From contig NC_080577.1 in NCBI RefSeq assembly GCF_029962835.1, positions 30,982,501-31,046,500 of the forward strand: a stretch of DNA of 64,000 bases. The letters are read 5' to 3'. Under the pieces are notes generated by a model. The model saw nothing but the letters and a program-made list of their open reading frames with translations. It did not search any database and was not told where the DNA came from. Below are positions 27,800-51,679 of the stretch, piece by piece. How positions within the stretch are numbered: position 1 is the first letter of the stretch; each line of letters begins with the position of its first letter. The position numbers and the translations under genes were made by a program. This stretch comes from Magnolia sinica. Taxonomy: Eukaryota; Streptophyta; Magnoliopsida; Magnoliales; Magnoliaceae.

Positions 27800-30220
27800 A
27801 ATTGAGGGTTGCAAGTGTTTCATGCCCAAGTGGGTTCATGACAACACTCTACGTCTCAAGGAGGATTGGTTGAGGGGTTATCTATCCCTCGCAGGATTAG
27901 ACACCACATGAGATCCTCTGAGTTAACTAAGGTTATGGTTGCAAATCAACCTCTTTTACCCCAACGTAGGGTGGAGGACATCCAGGATAAGAATGAGGTG
28001 CATCAAGCACACCCACCTCGTACTTTACGAGATTATTTACAACAGGCAGGGGTGAGTATGTCCTCATATATGATTTTTCCTGAAAATACGGGACACATGA
28101 ATATCAACTCAGGATTTAACTCCTTCCAAAGTTTCATGGGCTTAAATATGAAACTCCGTATCTACACTTGAAAGAGTTTAATAAAATCATAACCACTTGA
28201 TACTTTCCTAACGTGTCTGAGGACACGGTCAGGTTGAAACTCTTTCCCTTTTCTTTGAAAGAGAAAGCTAAGACGTGGTTACATTCACTACATCCCCGAT
28301 CTATTGGCACATGGAATGACATAACAAGGGAGTTCATAAAGAAATTTTTTTCATATCACAAAACGAACACCCTTAAAAAGTCAATTATGAACTTTGCCTA
28401 AAAGGAAGATGAAACATTCTTCCAATTTTGGGAGCGATTCAAGGACCTTGTCAGCTTATGCCCACAACACGGATTTGAATCGTGGCACATTACACACTTT
28501 TTCTATGATGGATTGACATCTTCCACGCGCCAATTGGTCGAGACAATGTGCAATGGAGAATTTATGAATAAAAATGTCGATGATGTGTGGGATTACTTGG
28601 ATAGACTTGCTGAAAACACACAAGCATGTGACACATACCCAAAATCAAATACCACTTCTAGGCCTACTCAATCAAAGGAAATGAGCAGAGTATACCTTCT
28701 AAAAGAGGATAATGATCTCAATTCTAAAGTGTCTAATCTCATAAAGAAATTTGAGGCCATAGAATCAAGGAAGAACAAGGGTAAGGAAGTTGTTTGTGGT
28801 ATTTGTGGTTGTAACAGTCACACAACTGAAAAGTGTCCAACCATATCTGCCTTTCAAGAGGTATTGACTGAGCAATCTAATGTCATAAATAACTATCAAA
28901 GACCTTTCAATGGACCTACCTCTAATACGTACAATCCTGGTGGGAAAAATCATCCAAATTTTAGTTGGAGGAATGGACAAACTGATACCCCTCAAGGTTT
29001 CTTTAATTAGACTTCACAACAACAACAAGAGAAACCTCAAGAGGATCCAATTTTAAAACATTTTAAAAAGCAAGATCATTTCAATCAGGGTATGCAACAA
29101 GTCTTGCAAGACCTTAACAAAATATTACAAGGACTTAAGGCTGAAAATACCATTGGGAATAAGGGGAGCCTCCCAGCTCAACCTCTTCCCAATCCAAAGT
29201 TGCAATATGAAGTTGGCAACCCAAGCTCTTTAAATCAAATGAAGCATGCTAAATCCATCACCACTCTTAAGAGTGGGAAGATTATTGATAAAACCCTTCC
29301 GGTTAGGCCTAAAAAGCCTCAAGAGTCAGAAGAGGACACCAATGATGGATCTAGTGATGCCCGACAAAAATTAGAACCAGAACTTCTAGAGAAGCCAGTT
29401 GCTCCATTTCCCCAACGGTTGGTTGCACCAAAACCTTTCTCTAACTCTCAGGATATTCTAGAGGTGTTGAAACAAGTGAAAGTTAACATTTCTCTACTTG
29501 ATGCCGTAAAACAAATACCTTTATATGCCAAATTCCTGAAAGACCTATGCACGATCAAACGACGACAGAGTATTTAAAAGAAGATCTTCTGGACTGAGAA
29601 AGTGAGTGCCATCCTGAAACAAGATGTGCCGCAGAAATTCAAAGATCCCGGTAGCCCAACCATATCATGTGTAATCGGGGACTATCGAATTGATCACGCA
29701 CTTCTTGACTTAGGAGAGGGCGTCAATTTGATTCCCTACTCGGTATACAAATAGTTAGGTTTGGGTGAATTAAAACCCACTCTAACCACACTACAACTTG
29801 CTAATCGCTCTGTTCGTGTACCAAGAGGGATAATTGAGGATGTGTTAGTCTAGGTCGATAGATTTTACTATCCTGTAGATTTTATCATCCTGGACACCAA
29901 ACCCATCAATAACATGAGTACTCAGATTCCAGTCATTCTTGGTCGCCCATTCCTTGCCACTTCAAACGTAATTATCAATTACAGGAATGGTGTCATGACT
30001 ATGTCTTTCAAAAATATGACATTGGAGTCAAACATCTTTTTCAATAACGGCAGAAACTCAGAGGCTGATGACGATTTCTACGATATTAACATGATTGATT
30101 CTTTCGTGGAAGATAGAACGCCTCTGACCCTATCCTCTGACCCTCTAGACACGTGCCTAGCACACTCTTATGACTTGGATGATGATATGAGGCGTGTGCC
30201 TTACTTGATACTGCGCTAGT
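27800..30220 (+). pseudogene. Athila gag and aspartic protease remnants
   Basis: Gag remnants run from about 27815 (MPKWVHDNTLRLKE). Typical Athila phrases follow: LKLFPFSLKEKAKTWLHSLH near 28230-28290, TRQLVETMCNGEFMNKNVDD near 28520-28590, and a zinc-knuckle-like CGICGCNSHTTEKC near 28795-28840. A linker with ITTLKSGKIIDKTLPVRPKK lies near 29255-29310. The retropepsin-like region is at about 29640-30000; it includes QIPVILGRPFLATSNVIINY near 29920-29985. It is followed by the pre-RT phrase KLHLKPLPSDLEYAYLG near 30305-30355. The frame is broken in several places. Gag would form the particle and the protease would process it. Confidence 0.85.
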
Positions 30221-37258: not shown

Positions 37259-40200
37259 AAGTGGTATTAGAGAGTCAGGTCTAAGGACGTCTTAGGAACT
37301 CAGGGAAGATGTCAGGGTCGAAATTCAATATACAAAAATTCGATGGGAAGAACAGTTTTAGTTTATGACAGGGAAGGTTAAGGATATTCTAGTATCACAA
37401 GGGTTAAGCAAGATGTTGTTGGAAACTAAACCAAAGAAGATTTCAGATGGTAACTGGAGTGAGCTCGGGGAGAAGGCTATGAGCACCATCCATCTATATC
37501 TATCGGATGAAGTTATGTAAACGATCTAGATGAAGAATCTTCCCGAGAGATGTAGAAGAAACTAGAAGAACTATACATGGCGAAGTCCCTCATGAATAAG
37601 TTGTTCATGAAGAAACAACTTTTTGATTTACGGATAAAGGAAAGATCCGATCTCCTGGAGCTATAAATACGTTTACAAATGTATGTAGCGAGTTGTTAAG
37701 GCTCGGAGTGATGATTGAGGAAGAAGACAACAAGCTACTTCTAGCATTGCTTCCCACATCATACGACCATCTCGTCACTACTCCGTTGTATGGGAAGAAT
37801 AAAGTGAAGATGGAAGAGATCACCGTGGCTCTCATTTTAAATAAGATGAGGAAGAAGTTGAGTGATGAGAACTCTCAAGTGAAAGGGTTAGTCATGAAAG
37901 GGCCCTTCAAGAAGAAAAAGTTTAGGTCGAAATCGAATGCGAAGGACGGATGCTTCTATTATGGTATAAAGTGACACTTCAAAAAAGGCTACTAGAAATA
38001 GAAGGATGAATTGGAAGGCAAGGGTAAATATATATAACACAGGTAAATCGACTATTATAGTGGAAGAGAGCTCAAAAGAAGACCTACTCTCAGATACATG
38101 GATACTCAAGTTAGGATGTTCAGATCACATGTGCCTAAATAGGACTTGATTCTAATCCTACAAGTCCTATGATGGTAGAAGTGTTCTAATGGGGAATGAC
38201 GCAGCATGCAAGGCCATCGGAATAGGTACCATCAAGGTAAGGATATTTGATGGAGTCATATAGACTCTAGGTGATGTCAGGCATGTCCCAAATCTAAAAA
38301 AAACTTAATATCCTTAGAGTTTTAGATACAAATGGTTGCATGCTCACTGTATCGGGCGGTATGATTAAGGTCATCAGAGGTGTAATGATATTAATGAAGG
38401 GACATAAAATGAGAAATCTGTACAAGTTGATAAGGAGCACGATTATAAGTGAGGCCGCTACCACCCCAGCCGCAAAATCTGGCATAGATGATACAAATCC
38501 GTGGCATATGCGGTAGGGAATATGAGTGAGAGGGGCATGATAGAACTCCATAAATGAAAACTATTAAAGATAGTTTAGGCATGAAAGGTGAATTTATGTG
38601 AACATTGCATATATAGAAAATAGTGTAGGGTAAGGTTCAAGACTATTACACACACTAGCATAGAGGGGTGCTATAGTATATTCATTCCAATGTCTGAGGA
38701 CCAGTGACAATACTATTTAAAGGAGGCACATGATACTTGATGAGCTTCATAGATGACTACTCGAGGAAGGTTTGAGTGTACTTTTTAAAGCACAAGTCTG
38801 AGGTGTTTGCCAAATTTAAGGAATGAAAGGAAGAAGTAGAAAAGCAAACCGAGAGACAAGTTAAGTGTCTGAAGTTAAATAATGGTATGGAGTACAGAGA
38901 TGCGGGATTCATGAAATTTTGAAAGGAACAAGGTATTATAAGGCACTTCTCAACTCTAAGGACCCTACAACAGAACGGGGTCACAGATAGGATGAATAGA
39001 ATTCTGTTAGAGAGGGAGAGCAGATGCGGTTGCATGTGGGGCTGCCTAAAAGCTTCTGGGTAGAAGCGGTGAACATGACATGCTATATTGTAAATCAGTC
39101 ACTATCTACAATGCTTAAGTCCAATGTTACAAACGAAGTTTGGACATGCAAAGATGTTGATTACTTAGGGATAAGTATCTTTGGATGTCCAATATACGTT
39201 TATGTGTAGAGTGGACAGAGGATGAGCCGGATCCCAAATTTAGGAAATGCATCTTTATTGGGTATTAGAAAGGTATTAAGGGCTGCAAGCCTTGATATGC
39301 TGACTCTCAGAAGGTGGTCATTAGCAGAGTTGTTATCTTTGATGATGCATCAATGTTGAAAGCTAACAAAGATGCTGTAGAGAAGTTGAAAAAGCATAGT
39401 AAGACCGAGAGATTGTTAGTGTAGATGGAGCTAGTTGAGCATGTTACTAAAGATGATATTCAACAGGAGCAAGAAATTGATGGTAATTATTAGCAGGATA
39501 CCCAGGAAAGTATAACTAATAGTAGGGAGAAAAGAACAATTAGATCCCCAGTTTGGTCTGAGTTTGAGGACATGGTCTCTTTTGCATTATTTACAAGGAG
39601 TAGAGATCCCTCCATCCTTAATGATATAAAATTTGAAAGGCATGGAGATAAATAGATGTAAGCCATGATAAAGGAGATGAAATCTCTACATAGAAATCAA
39701 ACATGAGAGTTGGTGGAACTTCCAAAAGGTTAGGGGGCTATAGGGTGCAAGTGGGTGTTTAGGATGAAACATTGTGAAGAGTACAAGCATGACTCTCAGT
39801 AAAGGGGTACTCGCAAAGGGCAGAAGTAGATTACAACAAAGTTTTCTCTTCGATCATGAAACATACTTCAATCAGGGTGCTATTGGCTATAGTAGAGAAA
39901 TCCAATTTGGAATTGGAGTAGTTCAATATGAAGATGACATTCCTTCATGAGAACTTGGAGGAAATCATTTACATAAGGCAGCCTGAAGGATTCAAGGAGC
40001 TTGATAAAGAAGGCAACATGTGTAGGTTAAAGAAGTTATTATATGGGCTGAAGCAGTCTTTGAGGTAGTGGTATAAGTGGTTTAATTTCTATATAGTTGA
40101 GATTGGGTAAGGTGTAAGTATGATTGTTGCGTATATTACAGGGTATTTGAGGACATGTCATATATTCAAACGATGCTTTACGTTGATGATATGTTGATTG

Positions 40201-41283
40201 TTGCAAATGAGAAGAAGTGATGCACTTGCTTAAGTCTCTGTTAAGTAAGGAGTTTGACTTGAATGATTTATGAGTTGTGAAGAAGATCTTAGACATGGAG
40301 ATACAAAGAGACATAGAGTATGGGAAGCTTTTATTTTATCAGACTGGTTATGTGTAAAAGGTACTAGAGAGGTTTCACATGAAATGTGTTAAGCCAATTA
40401 ACATACCTCTAGTAGGTCACTTCAAGTTGTCTGTCGAGTCATATCCAAGTACAAAGGAGGAGATTTCAAAAATGTCACGGGTGACGTATGTGAGTGTAGC
40501 AAGGAGTCTCGTGTATGCAATGGTTTGCATGAGACCAGATATCTTACACGTAGTTAGTGTGGCTAGAAGATATATGGTGAATCCAGGAAAGGAGCATATG
40601 AATGTTGTTAAGTGGATTCTCAAGTATCTTAGGGGCACATTCGACATTGGGATCATATTCGGAGGACATTGAGCTTCAGGTGGAGTTGTAGACTACATTG
40701 ATTCAGATATACAAGTGATATGGATAACAAGAGGTCCATTATAAGTTATGTTTTCACATTAACATGCAGACCGTTATGTTGGAAATCTAGACTATAGTAT
40801 GTGACAACATTGTCTACAACTGATCAAAATATATGGTTATGGTAGAGGCGTCAAAAGAAGCATTGTGGTTGAAACGTTTGATCAGAGAGCCCAGGGTGAA
40901 GCAAGATGTGATTCAGTTTCATTATGATAGTCAGAGTGATATCTATTTGACGATGAATTAGGTGTATCATGTGAGGATCAAGCACATCCACATGAGATTC
41001 CATAAGATACAAGAACTCGTTACTTCATGAGAAATTTTTTTTCAGAAGATTCACACGGATGAGAATGTTGTAAAGATGTTGACAAAGCCGGTGATCATAG
41101 AGAAGTTCAAGCACCGCTTGAGCTTTATCAATCTCATTAGCCATTAATGAGATTGGGCATCCTTGCACATGGGTGGGGATGGAGCTGCGTTCTAGGTGGA
41201 GAATGCAAAAGTTAGTCTACACTCAAGGTGGAGATTGCACAGGAGGTCTTCAGGGTGACTTATAAAATACAAGTCAAGGTGGA

Positions 41284-41983: not shown

Positions 41984-42234
41984 CTTTTTTATGTGAACAA
42001 CACTTTTTATGTGAACAACTCTAAGGGCCTGTTTGGATTTGTGTATAAGGGTGTATTGTATTGTATTCAGGTACTGTTCATGTATACGTTGGATGGTTTT
42101 CACAATACATCCAAATCAACATGCCATTAATCAATGTTTGGATAGGAGGTATTGTGCGGGCAAGTATACAATATCTTGTACAGATCAATGTTTGGATATG
42201 ACGTATTAGGCCTGTGTATTGTACAAATGTACAA

Positions 42235-42535
42235 CATACAATAGCTGTTATACAAATTGTTCATTTATTTTTTTAATTCTCGTCCATTTCATAGGTGGTG
42301 GTGCCCACCGTTAGTTGATATGCTTCATTTGATCTGTCCAACATGATCTGATCCGTCCAACATGATCGTCATTGAAAAATCCTATCCATCAATTCATACA
42401 ATAGCCGTTGTACAGTTTGTTTACTTTTTTCTTTTCCAATTCTCATCCAGTTCATAGGCGGTGGTGGCCACCGTCAGTTAATATGCTTCACCTGATCCGT
42501 CCATTGAAAAAACCTATCCATCCATTCAAAGAATT
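42235..42535. repeat. Subterminal direct duplication, period about 164 bp
   Basis: ATACAATAGCYGTTRTACA starts a unit near 42235 and again near 42399. Each continues with TTCATAGGYGGTGGTG and TTGATATGCTTC-like segments. It lies inside the left end of the Harbinger element. Confidence 0.8.
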
Positions 42536-43129
42536 CACGTTAACAATGGTATAGAGGGCATCTAACGTGGCCAAAATTAGCAACATCGACCATGACCTCT
42601 GATCAACCCTCAGAAAATGATATGACGCCCACCTAAGTTACAAGCGCAGGAACATGCTGGGAGAAACGTGTGTTCGAAAAAGGAAAAAACAGTTAACTGT
42701 AGGAAAAGGCTCGACCGATTGGCCAACCGTAGGCCCCACAATGAGGTTAGAGCTCATCTAGACCGTCCATTGGTTTTGAAAGAGCTGACTGACCATGATA
42801 TGGGCCACCTTTGTGTTGTACTATATCCCAGAGGGAGAAGGTGAGACAAAATAATATGATAAAGTTACCTAAAACTTTTTTTTTTAAAAAAATTTCCTCA
42901 TAGACATTTCCAAACGAATTAAGACACAAATCACACATCTGATCAGATATTATATACCAGATTGAGAGTTACTGGAAAGATTTGATATAGTATGTCCCCA
43001 CAAAAAAAAGAAAAAACACAAAGTATGGAACTTTAACTAACAACTTCCAGATAGTCCTTCAAAATGTATATTCCTGAAGATTCAAAAGGAAATCCGTTTC
43101 TCTGGACATTTAGAAAAACAACGACAAAA

Positions 43130-43669
43130 TAAACTCTCTTATGGCTGCAAATAATATGAACAGACCAAGCAGTAAACCAAGACACGGACGATGGGTGACT
43201 GGTTCATTTCCTACACCATCAGCGGCCACTCTTTCATGCCTGCCATCTTCAGAACCAATTTCGCCTATTACGGTTCGCTATATGGGTGCAGCTACACTTG
43301 TCCCACTGTCCATCGTCGTGGGACGAGTTGATGCACGTATAGGCAGACCACGAGATGTTTCTTCGGCCGCTCTATCAATAACGGTGGCCCAAATGATATA
43401 GTAATCAAAGCATAATCTTTGTCAATACGATACTAGTAGGATTATAAATCAGTGCTTTAAATATCAAATATTACAACATACAACTATTTTACAGTTGCAA
43501 CCTACCTTGTGTTGAGTCCATGCATTCACGGCGTCTTCATAACTCCTGAAGGACTTATTTTTGCACCCAATGAATCTGTGAACTTGTGCACTGCAATCTT
43601 CCTATGTCTCATATATTCCGGGTTTTCTTCCCAGGAACACCACGTAAAACTTCTTTTTCATTTTTCCTG
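43130..43669 (-). pseudogene. Third Harbinger gene: RNase H1 N-terminal (viroplasmin-like) domain protein
   Basis: On the minus strand an exon beginning at ATG 43661 encodes KKKFYVVFLGRKPGIY, then EDCSAQVHRFIGCKNKSFRS and YEDAVNAW, ending at 43506. This is the full pattern of the small domain found at the N-terminus of eukaryotic RNase H1 and in caulimovirus viroplasmin (Cauli_VI family), which binds RNA-DNA hybrids. A CAG acceptor lies just upstream of the ATG, and a good donor AAG|GTAGGT follows at 43505. A downstream exon may lie at about 43390-43130 (reads EETSRGLPIRASTRPTTMD), but I cannot prove it. The conserved Trp of 'YETW-ED' is a TAG stop. No catalytic RNase H domain is seen. It lies on the same strand as, and downstream of, the other two Harbinger genes. 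Confidence 0.68.
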
Positions 43670-44533
43670 CAATTGGCAAGCATAAAGTTTGAACCTAACA
43701 TAAGAGATTGATGTCTAGCAAATATATTGACAATTTGAATAAGAAGCAAATAATATGATAATGTCTGCATGTTAGATTAATGAGATCAAACTGCATATCA
43801 GTATTGAATCTACTTCAAATAGCTTTGATTATGACTGTATGTCAATATTACCTAATGAAAAATTGGAAACAAGAGTGTATCAGAAATCCTGGGAATCAGA
43901 AACAGTATTCTAACATGAAACTTCCAGATATTATCCAAACCAACTATTAGTAGTCGTAGACAACTGAACCAATTATACAAATTTGAAGATTATCAGTCCA
44001 AATGCCATCCTGTGAAGATTATCTGTTAGCTAGTCCCAATAGCAAAACTATATAATTAAAATATAGAAGCATATATAAATGATGAATGCCATCCTGTCAA
44101 GATGCTCCAAGCCAGAAGTGTAGAATACAAAATGTGAAACCTGCATCATTATATGCTATCATTGGAATGGTTCAATGACCTGCATGAAAACTGCAACATT
44201 CTCATATATACAGCACATTCAAAATATGCAAGTCAAGAAATTGTTGGAAGAAATGCTAATCCAATAGAAAATTAAACATCCATAGTATGTATGTTAAATC
44301 CTCCAACTGAGCCAAGTAGGGCCCGGGTAAAACAGTAATCACAACCATCTATCAAAAAAAGTTGTACAAAGCACCATTGTCAACAAACATATTTAATCCT
44401 TATCCCAAATTCACTCCTGGCCACTCCGTGGAAGGATAACTTTTTCTATCAATTCCTTTCTTCTCTCGTGTCCCATTTTCATAAAATATCCTGCACTGAC
44501 CAAATCGGATTGCAGCACCCTTGTAGCCCGAAT

Positions 44534-45644
44534 TTAATCCTCATTACTCAGACCTTCCATGTCCTCAAGTATCCCCAGCAACCACTGCACACGCATCATG
44601 CTTTTACCCTGCGCCATAGTTACGGTCAGGGTCTTTACAGCCTTTGCCATCTCCCCCATCTTGTCTCCTATTTGCTTGCTTGGCTTACCCTTCCTATGAC
44701 GGCCGATGTCACTCTCATCTGCGCGACTATGGCGAGATCCTGATGTTTTCTCCATTGGGCTTTTGTTATATTTCTTGGCCCTATTTATGGATCCATCGCC
44801 TGCGCGTGTGTGAGGAGTAGGCATCTGATTATCCTCATCATCGGATGAGAGTCGTACAATATCAAATGCCTCCTCATCAGAGCCGTCATCGGAATTCATT
44901 TCGGATCGGCTGTGCCGCTTCCCAGAAATAGGTGAAGAGTAAGCCGTGCTCGCAAATGATCCATGGGCACAGTCATTGCCAAATATGAAGGCCAAGTCGT
45001 CCCATCTATTGATGTGCTTTCCTCGCACACGTTTCGCATATGGGTGAGACTGTGCACACAAAGAGAAAATATTAGAAATCATATACTGAAAACCAGGAAA
45101 TTTTGGAATAACTGAAAAAATTATAATATCCTACCGCAATATACCCAGCTCACACATCATCAGTAGTGACAACCATCTTTTTGTCAGAGTCCCATCCAAA
45201 ACCTGATGCACTGAGCAGGTCCTTGATAGAAATATACAACCTCTTCAAGGTCCGCAACTGATTAGATATGTGACGATTTTCAAGTAATATGCCACATGTA
45301 TCATGGATTTCTTTGATGGTTGCCTTGTAGGCTTCGGGTTTGAACCCAATATCACTCTTAAGGCCGAGGTTGACTTGTTTAACCAGGGCATCCACCAACG
45401 AATTGTCCATATTATCGGACCATTGAACTCTACTTATTTTACTAGTAGAGGCTTGCCTACGCCTCGAGGTAGATATACCCCTAGGTGAGGGCCCTTTCCT
45501 TGAGGGCGTAGCGGTTTTTCGTGGAGTTTGAAGAGGTTGTGTTGGTGATCTTGGACTGAGGGGTAGATGACCACCCCTTCTTGTAGGTGACGAGTCCACA
45601 TTTTTATTCCTCGGATCATTTGTGGAACTCCTCAGAAAATTCAT
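44534..45644 (-). pseudogene. Harbinger second gene: Myb/SANT-like DNA-binding protein
   Basis: There are two exons on the minus strand, 45644-45135 and 45049-44534, joined across an 85-bp intron (donor GCG|GTAGG, acceptor GTGCACAG|TCT). Together they give 341 codons plus stop. Residues about 70-170 are a Myb/SANT-like domain of the type found in plant proteins with NLGLKSDIGFKPEAYKATI and DLLSASGFGWDSDKKMVV. The N-terminus is Ser/Pro/Arg-rich, and the C-terminus holds an acidic stretch with a predicted helical end. In PIF/Harbinger elements this partner helps the transposase enter the nucleus and bind DNA. One in-frame stop (TGG to TGA) replaces the Trp of the conserved 'DDVW' at codon 165; otherwise the frame is open. 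Confidence 0.85.
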
Positions 45645-45833
45645 TTCACCTACAAGTAAAACATATTAATAGCAATATGACGGGAGCATACAATTAATCC
45701 ACGAAAGTATTGATTCATAATGGAACATGAAAAGATTATATAAGCTATCCTATTACAAAATCCACAGTAAAAGTAAATATGTATTGAAATATTCCTGCTA
45801 TAAACATAGCAGATGAGTACATAGCTAATGAAA

Positions 45834-47254
45834 CTAAATATGTTGTCTGGTGTGTGGAAGACTGTCACTCCACATTCTTTCAGCTATCTCGTCTCTCTTC
45901 CTCGCCCATTCTTCCTGACAACGGTCCGTCACCCGAGATAAAGCTCGTCCTACCTCCATTATAGATATATCTATAGGGGATGGTGCAATATCCTCTATAC
46001 TGTCTCCACTGTCCTTAGTCAGTCCGTCATCACCACTAACACGGATGAAATTATGATGGACACAACAAGATATAACAATTTTTACTTGTGTTTTAAACTT
46101 GAACTGAGGAGGATTACGTAGAATAGGAAAGCGGCCCTTTAAAAGCCCAAAAGACCCCTCTATGACATTTCACAACTAGGCGTGGCGATAATTGAAAAGT
46201 TCTTTTTTATTGGAGGGCTTGCTTCCAGTACGGAACTCATTCAAATGATATCGCACACCTCGATAGGGGGCCATAAACCCATGCGAATGTGCATATCCAT
46301 CATCAATGATATAATATTTTTCTACACATTGCATGTCAAGATTTCAATTATGCTTCATACATAAACTCCTAAAATGTAAATAAACACCCCCTATATGTGA
46401 TTACCGTGAGGAATAAAAAAATAGTTAGGGCGACGGGTTAATGCATTTTGTAAGACATGTGCATCGGATGCAGAGCCATCCCAACCAGCAAGCACATACA
46501 CAAATTTCATATCAAAGGTACATGCAGTAAGAACATTTTGAGACAGATATCCTTTCCTATTTCTAAAAGTTGAGCCCATTTCTCTTGGCAAATAGGCTGG
46601 TATATGGGTGCCATCTAGGGCCCCGATGCAGTCCTACAATCAAACGTGCCACATGATCAGTTCAATCTTTTTACAAATTAAAATTTTTACCAATGACATC
46701 TAATACTTGTATAATATTACCTGAAAGTATGCACTCCATAAAGGATTGTTGGATATTTCTTTGGGTGTGTGTAATCCAGGAAACTTCATATATTCTAGGT
46801 ATAGACCGATAATTACATCCAACACCCTAGTAAAGTGTCAAGTTATGGTCTCACCAGATCTTGTAAATCGATGACCAATCACATGATTATGTACATTATG
46901 TCTAACTGTATGTAAGAACATTACAACCTGCTCTTCCATACTACACCTCCTGGTATCGGATAGGAGTTTCCGATCTCTCAATAATGAACACAATTCGAAG
47001 AAATTGTCCTTGCCCATTCTCAGCTGTGCGAGACAATCAACATCGCTTTTCCTTATTATGCCATTGACAAATCTATCCTTCTCAATGTGACAATCATTAT
47101 ACTTTGTCTTAATACAGTAACGACGATAATATTCTGCAGCGCCCATTATACATGCAGAGGCTGCAATGGCTGTTAATGCAGTAGCTACTTCACTCTCAGT
47201 CCATTCACTAGCAAATGACCTTTCATCACTATTTTCGGCACTATCGGAAGTCAT
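45834..47254 (-). pseudogene. Harbinger transposase (HARBI1-like nuclease)
   Basis: Three minus-strand exons are proposed: 47254-46721, 46633-46405 and 46321-45834. The introns at 46634-46720 and 46322-46404 have GT-AG ends. The sum is 416 codons plus stop, the usual length for the family. The N-terminal part has a helix-turn-helix-like GKDNFFELCSLLRD. The DDE nuclease is visible as CIGALDGTHIPAYLPREMGS (first Asp), WDGSASDAHVLQNAL (second Asp) and NVIEGSFGLLKGRFPIL (Glu). Three in-frame stops are seen: TGA at 46838-46840 where an Arg is expected, and TAG then TGA close together in 'FNYRHA-Q-L-R-NV'. All three look like C to T changes. The gene would excise and reinsert the element. The start ATG at 47254 is chosen because MTSDSAENSDERSF resembles acidic Harbinger N-termini. 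Confidence 0.85.
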
Positions 47255-47474
47255 AAGACTATTGGAGATGAAATTTATCTGAATGTGAATTACAATGAAT
47301 CCGTAAAATTTATATTCAATGTATGGAAATGATGTGTGACAGACGCTACAGATAAAATTGAACTGTTTGTCATGCATCTGTTTTTATGCAAACCATCTCA
47401 ACATTAATATACAGTTTCTGTTTCAATTAATATACAGTTACACATCTAATCATGAAGCTTCATTTTCAGGTATA

Positions 47475-49587
47475 TGTTCACACCCCAAGTATAGGGTTGT
47501 GATGTAGTAATAAACTCGATAAGATCGAGGTCGAATCCACAGGGACTGAAACCTGTACATAATATGAAAATAACCAGAACTAGAACTAGAATAAGATGAA
47601 ATCTAAATTGAATGAAGGAATAATGGTGAAAATATTAATCTAAAATTTGTGAAATTCAAAGGTAGGAAACTAGGGATTCAGAGGATCCACTTATAGAGAT
47701 CAGTGAGATCAATGCTTGATTCATGAACTCAACTGGACTTCGAGTCCCATCTTCATCCAGTTGGAAGATATATCTTTAAAACGCAATCTAAACTTCCTTT
47801 GATCTAGTTTTCAAAATACGAGAATGATGTAAATTAGAATTGATTCCATCACAAAACTATGCTCATGGGACAAAGCAAATAATAGAATTTAACTAATTCA
47901 CAGCCAATCTGAGAGATGTATGAATGTTAGGAAGGATTCCATCATCCAACCATGTCCAAGGGGCGATGGTGAACAACAAGACTTCCTAACTAATCATAAT
48001 AATGAAAAGGAAATGCTCAAAGCCATCGTAGATCTATTGTAATTTAAGTCACAACAAACCATTAAAAACTAAAGGCATTCCTCATAATCAAACTAGAATC
48101 AAATTCTGTTCATAAACATGAATCAAAAGGCATAAAAATCCCCCATCACACTACAAGCTTCACCTCTTAGCCCTAGCTAAGAGGCTTAGCTAGACATGCT
48201 TAGGCTAAGATCTCTAAACAATTTCATAAGCAAAGGAAGAAAGAAAATAAAAGAAGAAGAAGGAAAATTGAAACCATCTTCACTGTCCTCTCTTTCATGT
48301 CCTCCCTCTTGTCCAGATTGCCCTTCTCTCTCTCTTTCTTCACCTTTTATAAGCATAAGGAGGAGAGTCGGTGGGGGCTTGCAGCGTGCATTTTCTTTAA
48401 GCAACCATCAGCGTGCGAACTAGGCTTCTTGGCTGCGCAATCAGTTTTGAGTCGTACCGAGCAATCAGACGCAAGATCCATCTCATTCAATGTCCTCAGC
48501 CCTGATCGGACAACCCTGAGATCATTTTGGACAGCCATGATCATTGGTCCGATCCTGGCCACGTTCTCCAAACGGCCCGTTGAATATGTTTATCGCACGC
48601 TCTGCGCATGCTGCAAACTACACCTGCGCGGCTTCTTGATGGGGCCCACTTCAGCTGATGTTTGAGAGATCCACGTCGTCCACTGGATTCAGATAAAAAA
48701 ACTCATCGAGAATGGACCATTCTTGATTGATTTCGGTGAGGCCCACAGACTCTTTCACTCTGCTGTTCGACCTACGTTTGGACGATTAGAAATCATCTTT
48801 CGATGCCTTCTGGGAATCTGTCACTTAGGTCGTGATCATAAGGCCTTTTAAGGTCTGATGGATGGTCCTGATCATCTGGAAGATTGATCATGGTGGCCCA
48901 TGAAAAATCATCCGCAAGCTCTGTTTGAGCGTTCGTAGGCAAGAAGAGGAGGGAATGTAATTTCCTTTTGAAATTTTCGGTCAAAAGTCTGTTGAACGAC
49001 TTTGATAGTTCAGTGCACTGCAAGTGCACAGCTAGTGTGCACTCCCACTCACTCAAAGTGGGTCCCAAATTGATGCGTGTGAGAAATCTGCTCCCTTCAT
49101 CCGTTTTGTCAGCTCATTTAAGCGGTTGAGACCAAGATGGAGGCATATCCAGAGATCGTGTGGGTCCCAAAACGATGATTTATGGGCTGATTAGTCCGTC
49201 GGGCCACTTTCATAAGGATCTGGGGGCTGAAATTTGACGTGTATAGTTAATTTATGGCCCTCAGGCCATATCTGAAGTTTTGAACCGAACAGATGGTGAG
49301 AACCCTGTGATCTTGCATTTTGGATGAATTTTAGGCCTCTTTAGCGTGAAATATTAGATTTTCCTTGAATCCCGGGCATGTAAACTCTTCGATCTCGGTC
49401 CCCTGGAATTCGTCCCTCACCTTGGTCCTTCTTGAGCATTAAATCTATGCCTTTAGCATTCTTTTTAGTCCACGTTCGTAAATCCACCTTACAACATAAA
49501 CACGATTAAAATAAGGCATTAAACGGTATCATGCTCATAAAATCAGGTAATAAATGGGGTCTAATATGTAATATTTGACTCTCAATA
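47475..49587 (-). mobile_element. Athila-type solo LTR, inserted in the Harbinger element
   Basis: The sequence TGTTCACACCCCAAGTATAG at 47475 is the reverse complement of the Athila LTR end found at 27255 and 34518. The other end (ACTCTCAATA) matches the reverse of the LTR start. Perfect 5-bp target duplications GTATA flank it (47470-47474, 49588-49592). Length is 2113 bp, slightly shorter than the 2247-bp LTRs of the complete element and clearly diverged from them, so it is a different, probably older, family member. It separates the transposase from the right terminal inverted repeat. Confidence 0.85.
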
Positions 49588-49592
49588 GTATA

Positions 49593-51679
49593 CTTGCAAC
49601 ATTTGCTGTTTGCATAGCCTGATGCATTTGTATTTGTTCATTGATAATTAAGCTATCATATGACCATCCCAATACAGATTTGACAGCAAACATGAATATA
49701 TGTTTACAGTAAAATAAGTAAAGGAAAATATCTGTTTATAGTTATTTACTGTACACATGAATATTCATGTATGGTAATTTAAGCATACACAAATATTTGC
49801 TTACAGTTAGTTATGCAAATAAGAAGTCAGAATTGTTCAGGGTCTTCAACAGGTATCACCCTGATTACAACATATACAAGCATGGATACATCACCATCAC
49901 AGTTCGTACAGACATCATATCAATATCTATTTACAGCTTGTAAGTCACTCAAAGACAAAACTTGCAGGGGGATGGGGGTGAGAAGTCACTTCCCTGTAAC
50001 TCACTTACAGGCATCCAAATAGGCCCATGTAAGTGACTTTCACCTGTAATTGACTTACCTGTAAGTGACAATCACCTGTAAGTGACTTACAGGTATCCAA
50101 ACAGGCCTTAATGATTCTGATATACATATTAATATTATGATTGAGGTAGCTGTCAATGAACATCATACATTCTGATTAAAATAGTACTTCAAAATCAGTA
50201 ATGACATATCTGTTATCTGACAAAGAGATTGTAGAGAGTTGAAAATTTTACACTGAGGGCTGCAAGACTTCTAATGTCTGCATGGGCACATGATTAGTTG
50301 TAGTGGTTAGGGTTCAATTCAGAGATAAAAAGATTTGATTAAGGAGATGACAGTTTAAAACTGAGCTCTCATAGCACGCATGCCTTGATTTAGAAATGTA
50401 GAAAATGGTAAATGAAAAAAAAATAAAAATTCTCAGAGGACCATTGATTCAAATCAGAGTCCCTACCACAACCATGTATCTGTTACCACACATCGATGGA
50501 AAGGCATGTAGTTATTTCAACAGGTAATAAGTTTATAGGTGAGAGAAAGACATGAAGCTGCCACTGAATCTCTCAGGATAGCCGCATATAACTATGCAAC
50601 CGAACTTCTAAATATGCATATAACAATGTTATCAGTGAACATCTTCCACTGATAATCCTGACAGTTAGCAATGAATATGTTGCTGAAAATGGAAAACATG
50701 TTATGAAGATAGATTCATCTTCAAATGGCCATCATAACTCCATAATATGCAGTAAAAAATAGTGCAGATGTCCAGAAAAGCAATTTTGGAAGAGTTATAC
50801 CTCAGACAGATTAACCGGAAGTAACAGAGCCTTAGGAGAATAGAAAAATTTTCAAATATAGAAGGTTTTAAAGAGATGACACGATTCAGGGTTTTTATAA
50901 ACAGAAGCATTCGAAATATCAAGATATCTGCAACCCACTGACAACATCATACCCTACCTGCAACTTGGAAGATATGCACCCATCCTTTCCAAAATCCTAA
51001 CTAGGATTCTCTCCTGCTGAGATTTTCCTTATTTTCTCCCCATCGACGGTATAGGCGTAGCTGGACATGGAATACCGGTTTGACAGATAGGGGTGTATAC
51101 GCCAGACCGTATACACACCATCCTCCTCCAGAAATTTTGCACTTGAAAAGGACGATACAGAAGGTTAGCCTGGATATGGTTATGGTTACAGGCTAAATGT
51201 ATCGCAGTACCATCCGAAGGAATGAGATTCATACCTGTAGGGTCGCCCTTCCGCCGGACGATATGGGGTGCTCCGGTATGATTTGCAACCCACAACGAAG
51301 AAGAAGGTTATCCTACCTACTGTAAGTTGAAATCAGCCTTCAGAGGAGAAGGAATTATAAGGAATGGCGACATGCAGAAGGTTAGTGATGCTTAAAGAGG
51401 CCGTTGGTGTAGAGTTCTCTTCTTCTCTCTTGCGAGATAACTCTATTTAGTCATCGCAAACATCTCTCGAGGAACGAATACAATACAATGATTCGGGAGT
51501 AATGATGGCAACAATGCCGTCTAACAACATTATTCCATCGTTTCATTTTTTAAAAAAATAGTATGTATTCGCGTGCATGGGATACCACGCATGTATACTC
51601 CAAACCAAACGTTGCAAACGTCACATCAAACCTTATAATACGATTCAATCCCGCCTTATATGCAAATCCAAATAAGCCC
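49593..51679. other. Right non-coding arm of the Harbinger element
   Basis: No protein domain was found on either strand. It contains a 16-bp minisatellite (49995-50107) and ends at the right terminal inverted repeat. As the genes are on the minus strand, this is the 5' upstream arm where the transposase promoter would lie. Confidence 0.6.
49995..50107. repeat. 16-bp minisatellite with MITE-like ends
   Basis: Four units of TGTAAGTGACTTTCAC type run from about 50028. Two copies of ACTTACAGGYATCCAAAYAGGCC, at about 50004-50025 and 50085-50107, bracket them. These read GGCCTRTTTGGAT on the other strand, as at Harbinger-type ends. Confidence 0.7.

Follow-up and report, generated by a model that had tools for sequence, protein, structure and literature searches.

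The window analysed here, a stretch of 64,000 nucleotides from the genome of Magnolia sinica, contains a PIF/Harbinger element on the minus strand at positions 42025-51679, measuring 9,655 bp from terminal inverted repeat to terminal inverted repeat. At 42025-42041 the sequence GGGCCTGTTTGGATTTG represents the exact 17-base end of the Harbinger element, the opposite 17-base end at 51663-51679 (the complement of GGGCCTGTTTGGATTTG) shows two mismatches, and a TAA target duplication flanks both outer sides. The minus-strand gene order is transposase, Myb/SANT gene (ORF1) and a third gene, here called ORF3. The transposase gene is present in pieces at 45834-47383 (minus strand, DDE_Tnp_4). The best-scoring piece (46391-46633) matches PF13359, the DDE transposase of Harbinger type, with E 1.1e-9 in Pfam, and the piece at 45834-46169 matches PF13359 below the cut-off (E 0.0042). 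For the transposase stretch 46150-47260 at least 39 other genomic matches were found, with 84-91% DNA identity among the matches listed. The Myb/SANT-like domain exon of ORF1 (45150-45665, minus strand) was identified with PF12776 (Pfam, E 5.2e-18). Its second exon region (44534-45130, minus strand) is an open frame in the window, and similar long frames for the pieces of this region were found in 7 to 11 of 13 other copies.

The exon structure of ORF3 was derived by comparing the window with 20 relatives (L009-L028). Exon 1 (43506-43661, minus strand) encodes an RNase H1 N-terminal (hybrid-binding) domain. Using X at the in-frame stop, Pfam scored PF01693 at 54.3 bits against a cut-off of 21 (E 1.5e-14), in agreement with the first-pass annotation, which had proposed such a domain on the minus strand. 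A chance resemblance to PF01693 was ruled out by the 54 bits in combination with the conserved frame. The exon ends with AAG|GTAGGT, and the good splice donor that had been read from the letters of the window is indeed kept as GT in all 21 aligned copies. Exon 2 (43110-43388, minus strand) encodes a linker plus a C-terminal hydrophobic segment; summed over 21 copies, its frame 0 is interrupted by 11 stops, its two other frames by 95 and 141. The acceptor of exon 2 is AG in 19 of 21 copies, the exceptions being L018 (AC) and the window (GG). The window copy of ORF3 is thus broken: a TAG stands at the conserved Trp codon of exon 1, and exon 2 has both lost its acceptor and gained one in-frame TAG. 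Counting the window and frameshifted copies, 9 of the 21 copies carry a stop in exon 1, and 4 carry one in exon 2. These defects had been missed in the first-pass annotation, as had exon 2 with its membrane-anchor-like tail and a conserved CAG before the start codon.

This CAG is part of a splice-acceptor-like TTGCAG (43667-43672, minus strand), which lies 5 nt before the ORF3 start codon and points to a probable leader intron. In 33 of 38 copies a CAG lies no more than 8 nt ahead of the ORF3 start, compared to 266 of 1859 background windows (14%). The distance between CAG and ATG amounts to 0 nt in 12 copies, 4 nt in five, 5 nt in 14, and 6 nt and 8 nt in one copy each. The distance therefore keeps no phase, as an untranslated leader exon would allow, and the ORF3 mRNA likely has a leader intron with its acceptor just before the ATG, as judged from genomic sequence. 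The same CAG also indicates that something upstream is probably spliced on, and the ORF3 exons could accordingly belong to the transcript of Myb or of the transposase as alternative 3' exons; the product might then be, for example, a Myb-domain protein with a hybrid-binding, membrane-anchored tail. The location of all genes on one strand and the 12 copies in which CAG abuts the ATG, suiting an in-frame join, fit this scenario. The lack of a kept phase (0, 4, 5, 6 or 8 nt) does not, the Myb frames stop before ORF3, and nearly all ORF3 copies listed possess an ATG of their own. We consider alternative 3' exons an unlikely explanation and treat ORF3 as a gene with its own start codon in the following.

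ORF3 proteins without frameshift comprise 123-144 amino acids and are built from a head domain, a linker that is unalignable between families, and a hydrophobic C-terminal segment. Proteins were assembled from 19 copies, selected because their frames could be read, and 17 of them have the hydrophobic C-end despite the unalignable linkers. In these 17 the top 17-residue Kyte-Doolittle window reaches 1.98-3.34 and ends 0-13 residues from the C-end, and the maximum elsewhere in the same proteins is 0.96. The hydrophobicity of the tail was equalled by at most 46 of 1000 shuffles, and by 0 or 1 in the seven proteins that were read as a single exon. The two exceptions without a hydrophobic C-end (L015 and L025) carry small frameshifting indels. 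A single hydrophobic segment near the C-terminus and none elsewhere, as seen in 17 of the 19 proteins, is the tail-anchored pattern. With membrane location predicted from hydrophobicity alone, ORF3 would be a small tail-anchored membrane protein whose head resides in the cytosol or nucleoplasm.

The head resembles the N-terminal domain of RNase H1 in sequence and, in a structural model, in the order of strands and helices. Among solved structures the closest relatives of the L019 head are yeast 1QHK (E 1.6e-10) and human 3BSU (E 7e-7), over 41 aligned residues. A single-sequence model of exon 1 from the window, of modest confidence (mean pLDDT 72), shows the order strand-strand-helix-strand-helix, which is the order reported for the RNase H1 N-terminal domain in the available part of PMC7657459. 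The six best fold matches in Foldseek were RNase H1 domains, 3BSU and 1QHK, all of them weak (best E 0.09). ORF3 differs from RNase H1 in three respects: no RNase H catalytic domain was found in it, it has the C-terminal hydrophobic tail, and its position 60 is not Lys. In Pfam, five full ORF3 proteins gave PF01693 only (E 2e-15 to 7e-20) and no RNase H catalytic domain. Because this domain is missing, ORF3 is not an RNase H1. Of 150 listed PF00075 (RNase_H) hits the first 50 were compared with the listed PF01693 hits, and none lies within 10 kb of one.

We take Trp43, Phe58, Lys59 and Lys60 (human numbering) to be the nucleic acid contact residues in the human structure. These contacts are kept in part. 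At the Trp43 position, Trp is found in 32 of 37 copies, and four of the other five carry stops; a basic residue (Lys or Arg) occupies position 59 in 31 of 37. The Phe58 position is occupied by His in 30 of 37 copies, and no copy has Lys at position 60, where 35 of 37 have Ser, Ala or Gly. The changes at positions 58 and 60 would suit a head that no longer binds nucleic acid and serves as a protein-protein module on the membrane. Such a loss seems rather improbable to us, given that the equivalents of Trp43 and Tyr29 as well as the basic residue at 59 are largely kept, and that the closest solved relative by sequence is yeast 1QHK, which is dsRNA-preferring according to the available part of PMC7657459.

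All counts given here were obtained from one plant genome, the Magnolia sinica assembly. The 20 relatives are the best-ranking ones among 39 other places that were listed for their similarity to the Myb DNA. All 20 carry the PF01693 domain downstream of Myb, partial or across a frameshift in six of them (L010, L011, L020, L022, L026, L027). Of the 19 remaining Myb matches, which were judged by coordinates, 11 are followed by a listed domain hit at no more than 4 kb. Both terminal repeats are present in 13 copies (the window and 12 relatives). ORF3 lies inside the repeats in all 13, and the 3-bp TWA duplications (TAA or TTA) match in 12 of the 13. The first-pass annotation had placed the domain gene inside the terminal inverted repeats and assigned it to the transposon, naming its absence from related copies, or a separate nested insertion, as grounds for giving up that assignment. 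The two ends and the TAA duplications of the window element support the placement, and the relatives support the assignment: ORF3 occupies the same place in 20 of 20 and so is not a nested insertion of this copy. No fourth conserved sense-strand gene was found across the 14 copies compared.

The genome-wide picture is similar. A first look yielded 1316 candidates for Myb, 1159 for PF01693 and 1542 for the transposase, with 150 hits listed for each; all 150 listed PF01693 hits scored above the Pfam cut-off. Among the matches listed, the genomic neighbours of PF01693 are transposase and Myb. The listed hits form 31 Myb/PF01693 pairs and 18 transposase/PF01693 pairs within 8 kb. Without exception these are same-strand with PF01693 downstream, and their spacing is 1.0-3.4 kb, bar one of each kind at 6.7-6.8 kb. 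The PF01693 candidates are many more than would be expected of host RNase H1 genes alone, and ORF3 may explain the abundance of RNase H1 N-terminal domain places in this genome. As a less biased test, 14 transposase-Myb pairs were drawn at random from 30 that had no listed PF01693 neighbour. The domain was found in 10 of them and only the hydrophobic tail in two (L039 and L050, judged by eye); in the last two, L046 and L048, neither domain nor tail was present within the 2 kb read.

When 10 hand-picked PF01693 places were taken as the starting point, six proved to have Myb-gene sequence upstream, namely L029, L030, L031, L036 and L038, and L037 by the second exon only. No Myb was found upstream of L032 (1.5 kb searched) or of L033, L034 and L035 (3.4 kb searched). 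The ORF3 exons of L032-L035 are without internal stops, and L032 is without an ATG; these four loci are possibly ORF3-only derivatives or copies split by insertions. L054, which lies upstream of L034, contains what is presumably a hAT-like fragment. A right end like that of the window family (2-3 mismatches) occurs 1.3-1.5 kb past the domain start in 5 of 24 loci scanned (L034-L038), and in the other 19 no such right end was seen in the stretch scanned. No ORF3 was found in the stretches read of L046, L057 and L058, which belong to a separate Harbinger lineage. The Myb gene of this lineage is a different one, and a long open transposase frame is listed nearby. ORF3 hence appears to mark a lineage and not the whole PIF/Harbinger superfamily.

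The ORF3 domain is under purifying selection, like Myb. Pooled dN/dS values (Nei-Gojobori) in the window family are 0.26 for the domain and 0.25 for Myb, and between the two subfamilies of the window family they are 0.198 and 0.188, respectively. For the domain, comparisons inside subfamily A gave 0.29 and those inside subfamily B 0.47; three other groups had values of 0.18, 0.31 and 0.32, and an additional comparison was saturated. The off-frame readings of exon 1 gave 1.29 and 0.96. These values, if anything, would understate the constraint, because the copies are non-independent and decay after insertion. Exon 2 shows no synonymous excess: dN/dS is 0.95 in frame 0 and 0.62 and 0.68 off-frame, so that frame 0 is favoured by the stop counts and not by dN/dS. 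Within the last 84 bases of exon 2, codon position 2 is the most conserved (0.10 vs 0.27 and 0.18), which fits kept hydrophobicity of the tail; for the rest of exon 2, the case for coding comes from the open frame only.

The domain has also diverged in step with Myb. For 23 copies, pairwise Myb and domain distances correlate with r 0.925 (0 of 2000 permutations); for seven representatives, whose pairwise Myb identities are 34-76%, r is 0.71 (3 of 5000 permutations). ORF3 is present in families with Myb domains 36-49% identical to those of the window family. From the selection and from the correlation of distances it follows that ORF3 very probably predates the split of the compared Harbinger families.

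Transposons can capture gene fragments, and the first-pass annotation had offered as an alternative that a host exon was captured by this copy. Under such a scenario an RNase H1 exon of the host would sit in the window copy alone and play no role for the transposon. The nearest parallel found is the capture of a viroplasmin gene by a Helitron, a different transposon, in a fungus, as described in the available part of PMC4289320. A capture restricted to the window copy is refuted by the presence of ORF3 in families with 36-49% Myb identity and in all 20 fetched relatives. The purifying selection on the domain, the missing RNase H catalytic domain in five ORF3 proteins, and the distance of the first 50 listed PF00075 hits from PF01693 also argue against it, leaving this alternative with hardly any probability. 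An ancient single capture would, however, be the likely ultimate origin of the ORF3 domain.

We conclude, with a probability of roughly 70%, that ORF3 is a genuine third gene of a plant PIF/Harbinger lineage, located between the Myb/SANT gene and the nearer terminal repeat. The parts available of three published accounts portray this superfamily with two genes: in one, two genes are stated for every known PIF element of plants and animals (PMC9710019); in another, virtually all coding elements characterised have two (PMC2836001); and a Medicago survey names transposase and orf1 only (PMC2213677). The lineage of the window shares with the two-gene elements (Ping, Pong, PIF, MtMaster, Harbinger3_DR) the terminal inverted repeats, the 3-bp TWA duplications, the DDE transposase and the Myb/SANT ORF1. 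In contrast to them it adds a third gene with a hybrid-binding-type domain and a membrane-anchor-like tail. The three-gene variant is filed under PIF/Harbinger, as the two-gene count describes the known members and does not define the superfamily. No literature linking Harbinger elements with a PF01693-type domain was found in a search that covered few subscription journals.

ORF3 also shares the PF01693 domain family with the transactivator/viroplasmin (TAV, P6) of caulimoviruses, but unlike TAV it sits in a DNA transposon with its own repeats. Among seven window proteins scanned, Pfam reported PF01693 and Harbinger-type domains, all other rows being sub-threshold, and no caulimoviral gene was found. 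A link to caulimovirus sequences, as had been suggested at first, is therefore not seen beyond the domain family common to RNase H1 and caulimoviral proteins.

The anatomy of ORF3, a hybrid- or dsRNA-binding-type head combined with a membrane-anchor-like tail, points to RNA handling or an escape from small-RNA silencing. ORF3 would be accessory and not catalytic, because no RNase H catalytic domain was found and because two-gene Harbinger elements transpose without it (PMC2836001, in the part available). The tail anchor would fix the head, and with it the binding of hybrid or dsRNA, to a membrane on the side of the cytosol or nucleoplasm. There, at the ER or nuclear envelope, ORF3 would hold RNA:DNA hybrids or double-stranded RNA derived from the element, and such a sequestration would shield the element from the small-RNA silencing machinery. 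We put this forward as a tentative suggestion. A precedent for its last step comes from the VANC proteins of VANDAL transposons, another kind of protein and another kind of transposon than ORF3 and Harbinger. In the available parts of PMC10398659 and PMC5735166, VANC of Arabidopsis VANDAL elements is described as a transposon-encoded anti-silencing protein in a plant; an analogy of role with ORF3 would be a guess.

Reports on the RNase H1 domain, as given in the available part of PMC7657459, are that the human head binds hybrid tightly and dsRNA weakly, that the fly head alone binds hybrid and dsRNA not detectably, and that the yeast head prefers dsRNA. The tighter binding of hybrid in human and fly would also suit a trafficking or chromatin factor that keeps the element, or the complex of its DNA with transposase, attached to the nuclear envelope, or that serves as a mark for R-loops at the donor or target site; the position of ORF3 downstream of transposase and Myb wherever listed hits adjoin points in the same direction. 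The transposition of two-gene elements without ORF3 (PMC2836001, in the part available) argues against a role in transposition and, together with the VANC precedent, leads us to favour anti-silencing, so that trafficking or chromatin work seems a doubtful assignment. Taken as one claim, it is likewise doubtful, if conceivable, that a deep plant PIF/Harbinger lineage encodes a conserved tail-anchored, hybrid- or dsRNA-binding silencing suppressor at the ER or nuclear envelope.

If a third gene is indeed kept under selection across diverged families, an overlooked step would exist in the PIF/Harbinger life cycle, and this would matter also for the small Tourist-type elements that are moved by PIF/Harbinger. 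If ORF3 acts as a silencing suppressor, it would represent a kind of transposon counter-defence for which the literature searched holds no description.

The window element itself is a mosaic of two subfamilies, and the switch falls at about 43.9 kb, in the stretch that separates Myb from ORF3. The segment 43878-47450 matches L009 at 88%, and L021, L022 and L026 match the same genes at 82-84%. On the ORF3 side it is nearer to L021, L022 and L026 (72-80%) than to L009 (70.7%). Further inside the element, about 2.2 kb at 47451-49618 are without counterpart in the seven relatives compared. The motif caccccaagtatagggttgtgatgtagtaataaactcg lies close to the start of this stretch, which is probably a later nested insertion. 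A shorter stretch at 49980-50110, possibly an old MITE-like insertion, is bordered on opposite strands by ends resembling GGGCCTGTTTGGATACCTGTAAG, and several relatives show similar ends. Outside the element, decayed reading frames adjoin it at about 37600-41200 on the plus strand; they look like a Ty1/copia-type retrotransposon. Farther away, at 28369-28475 on the minus strand, the window contains the plant C/D snoRNA snoR71 (RF00097, E 3.1e-6).
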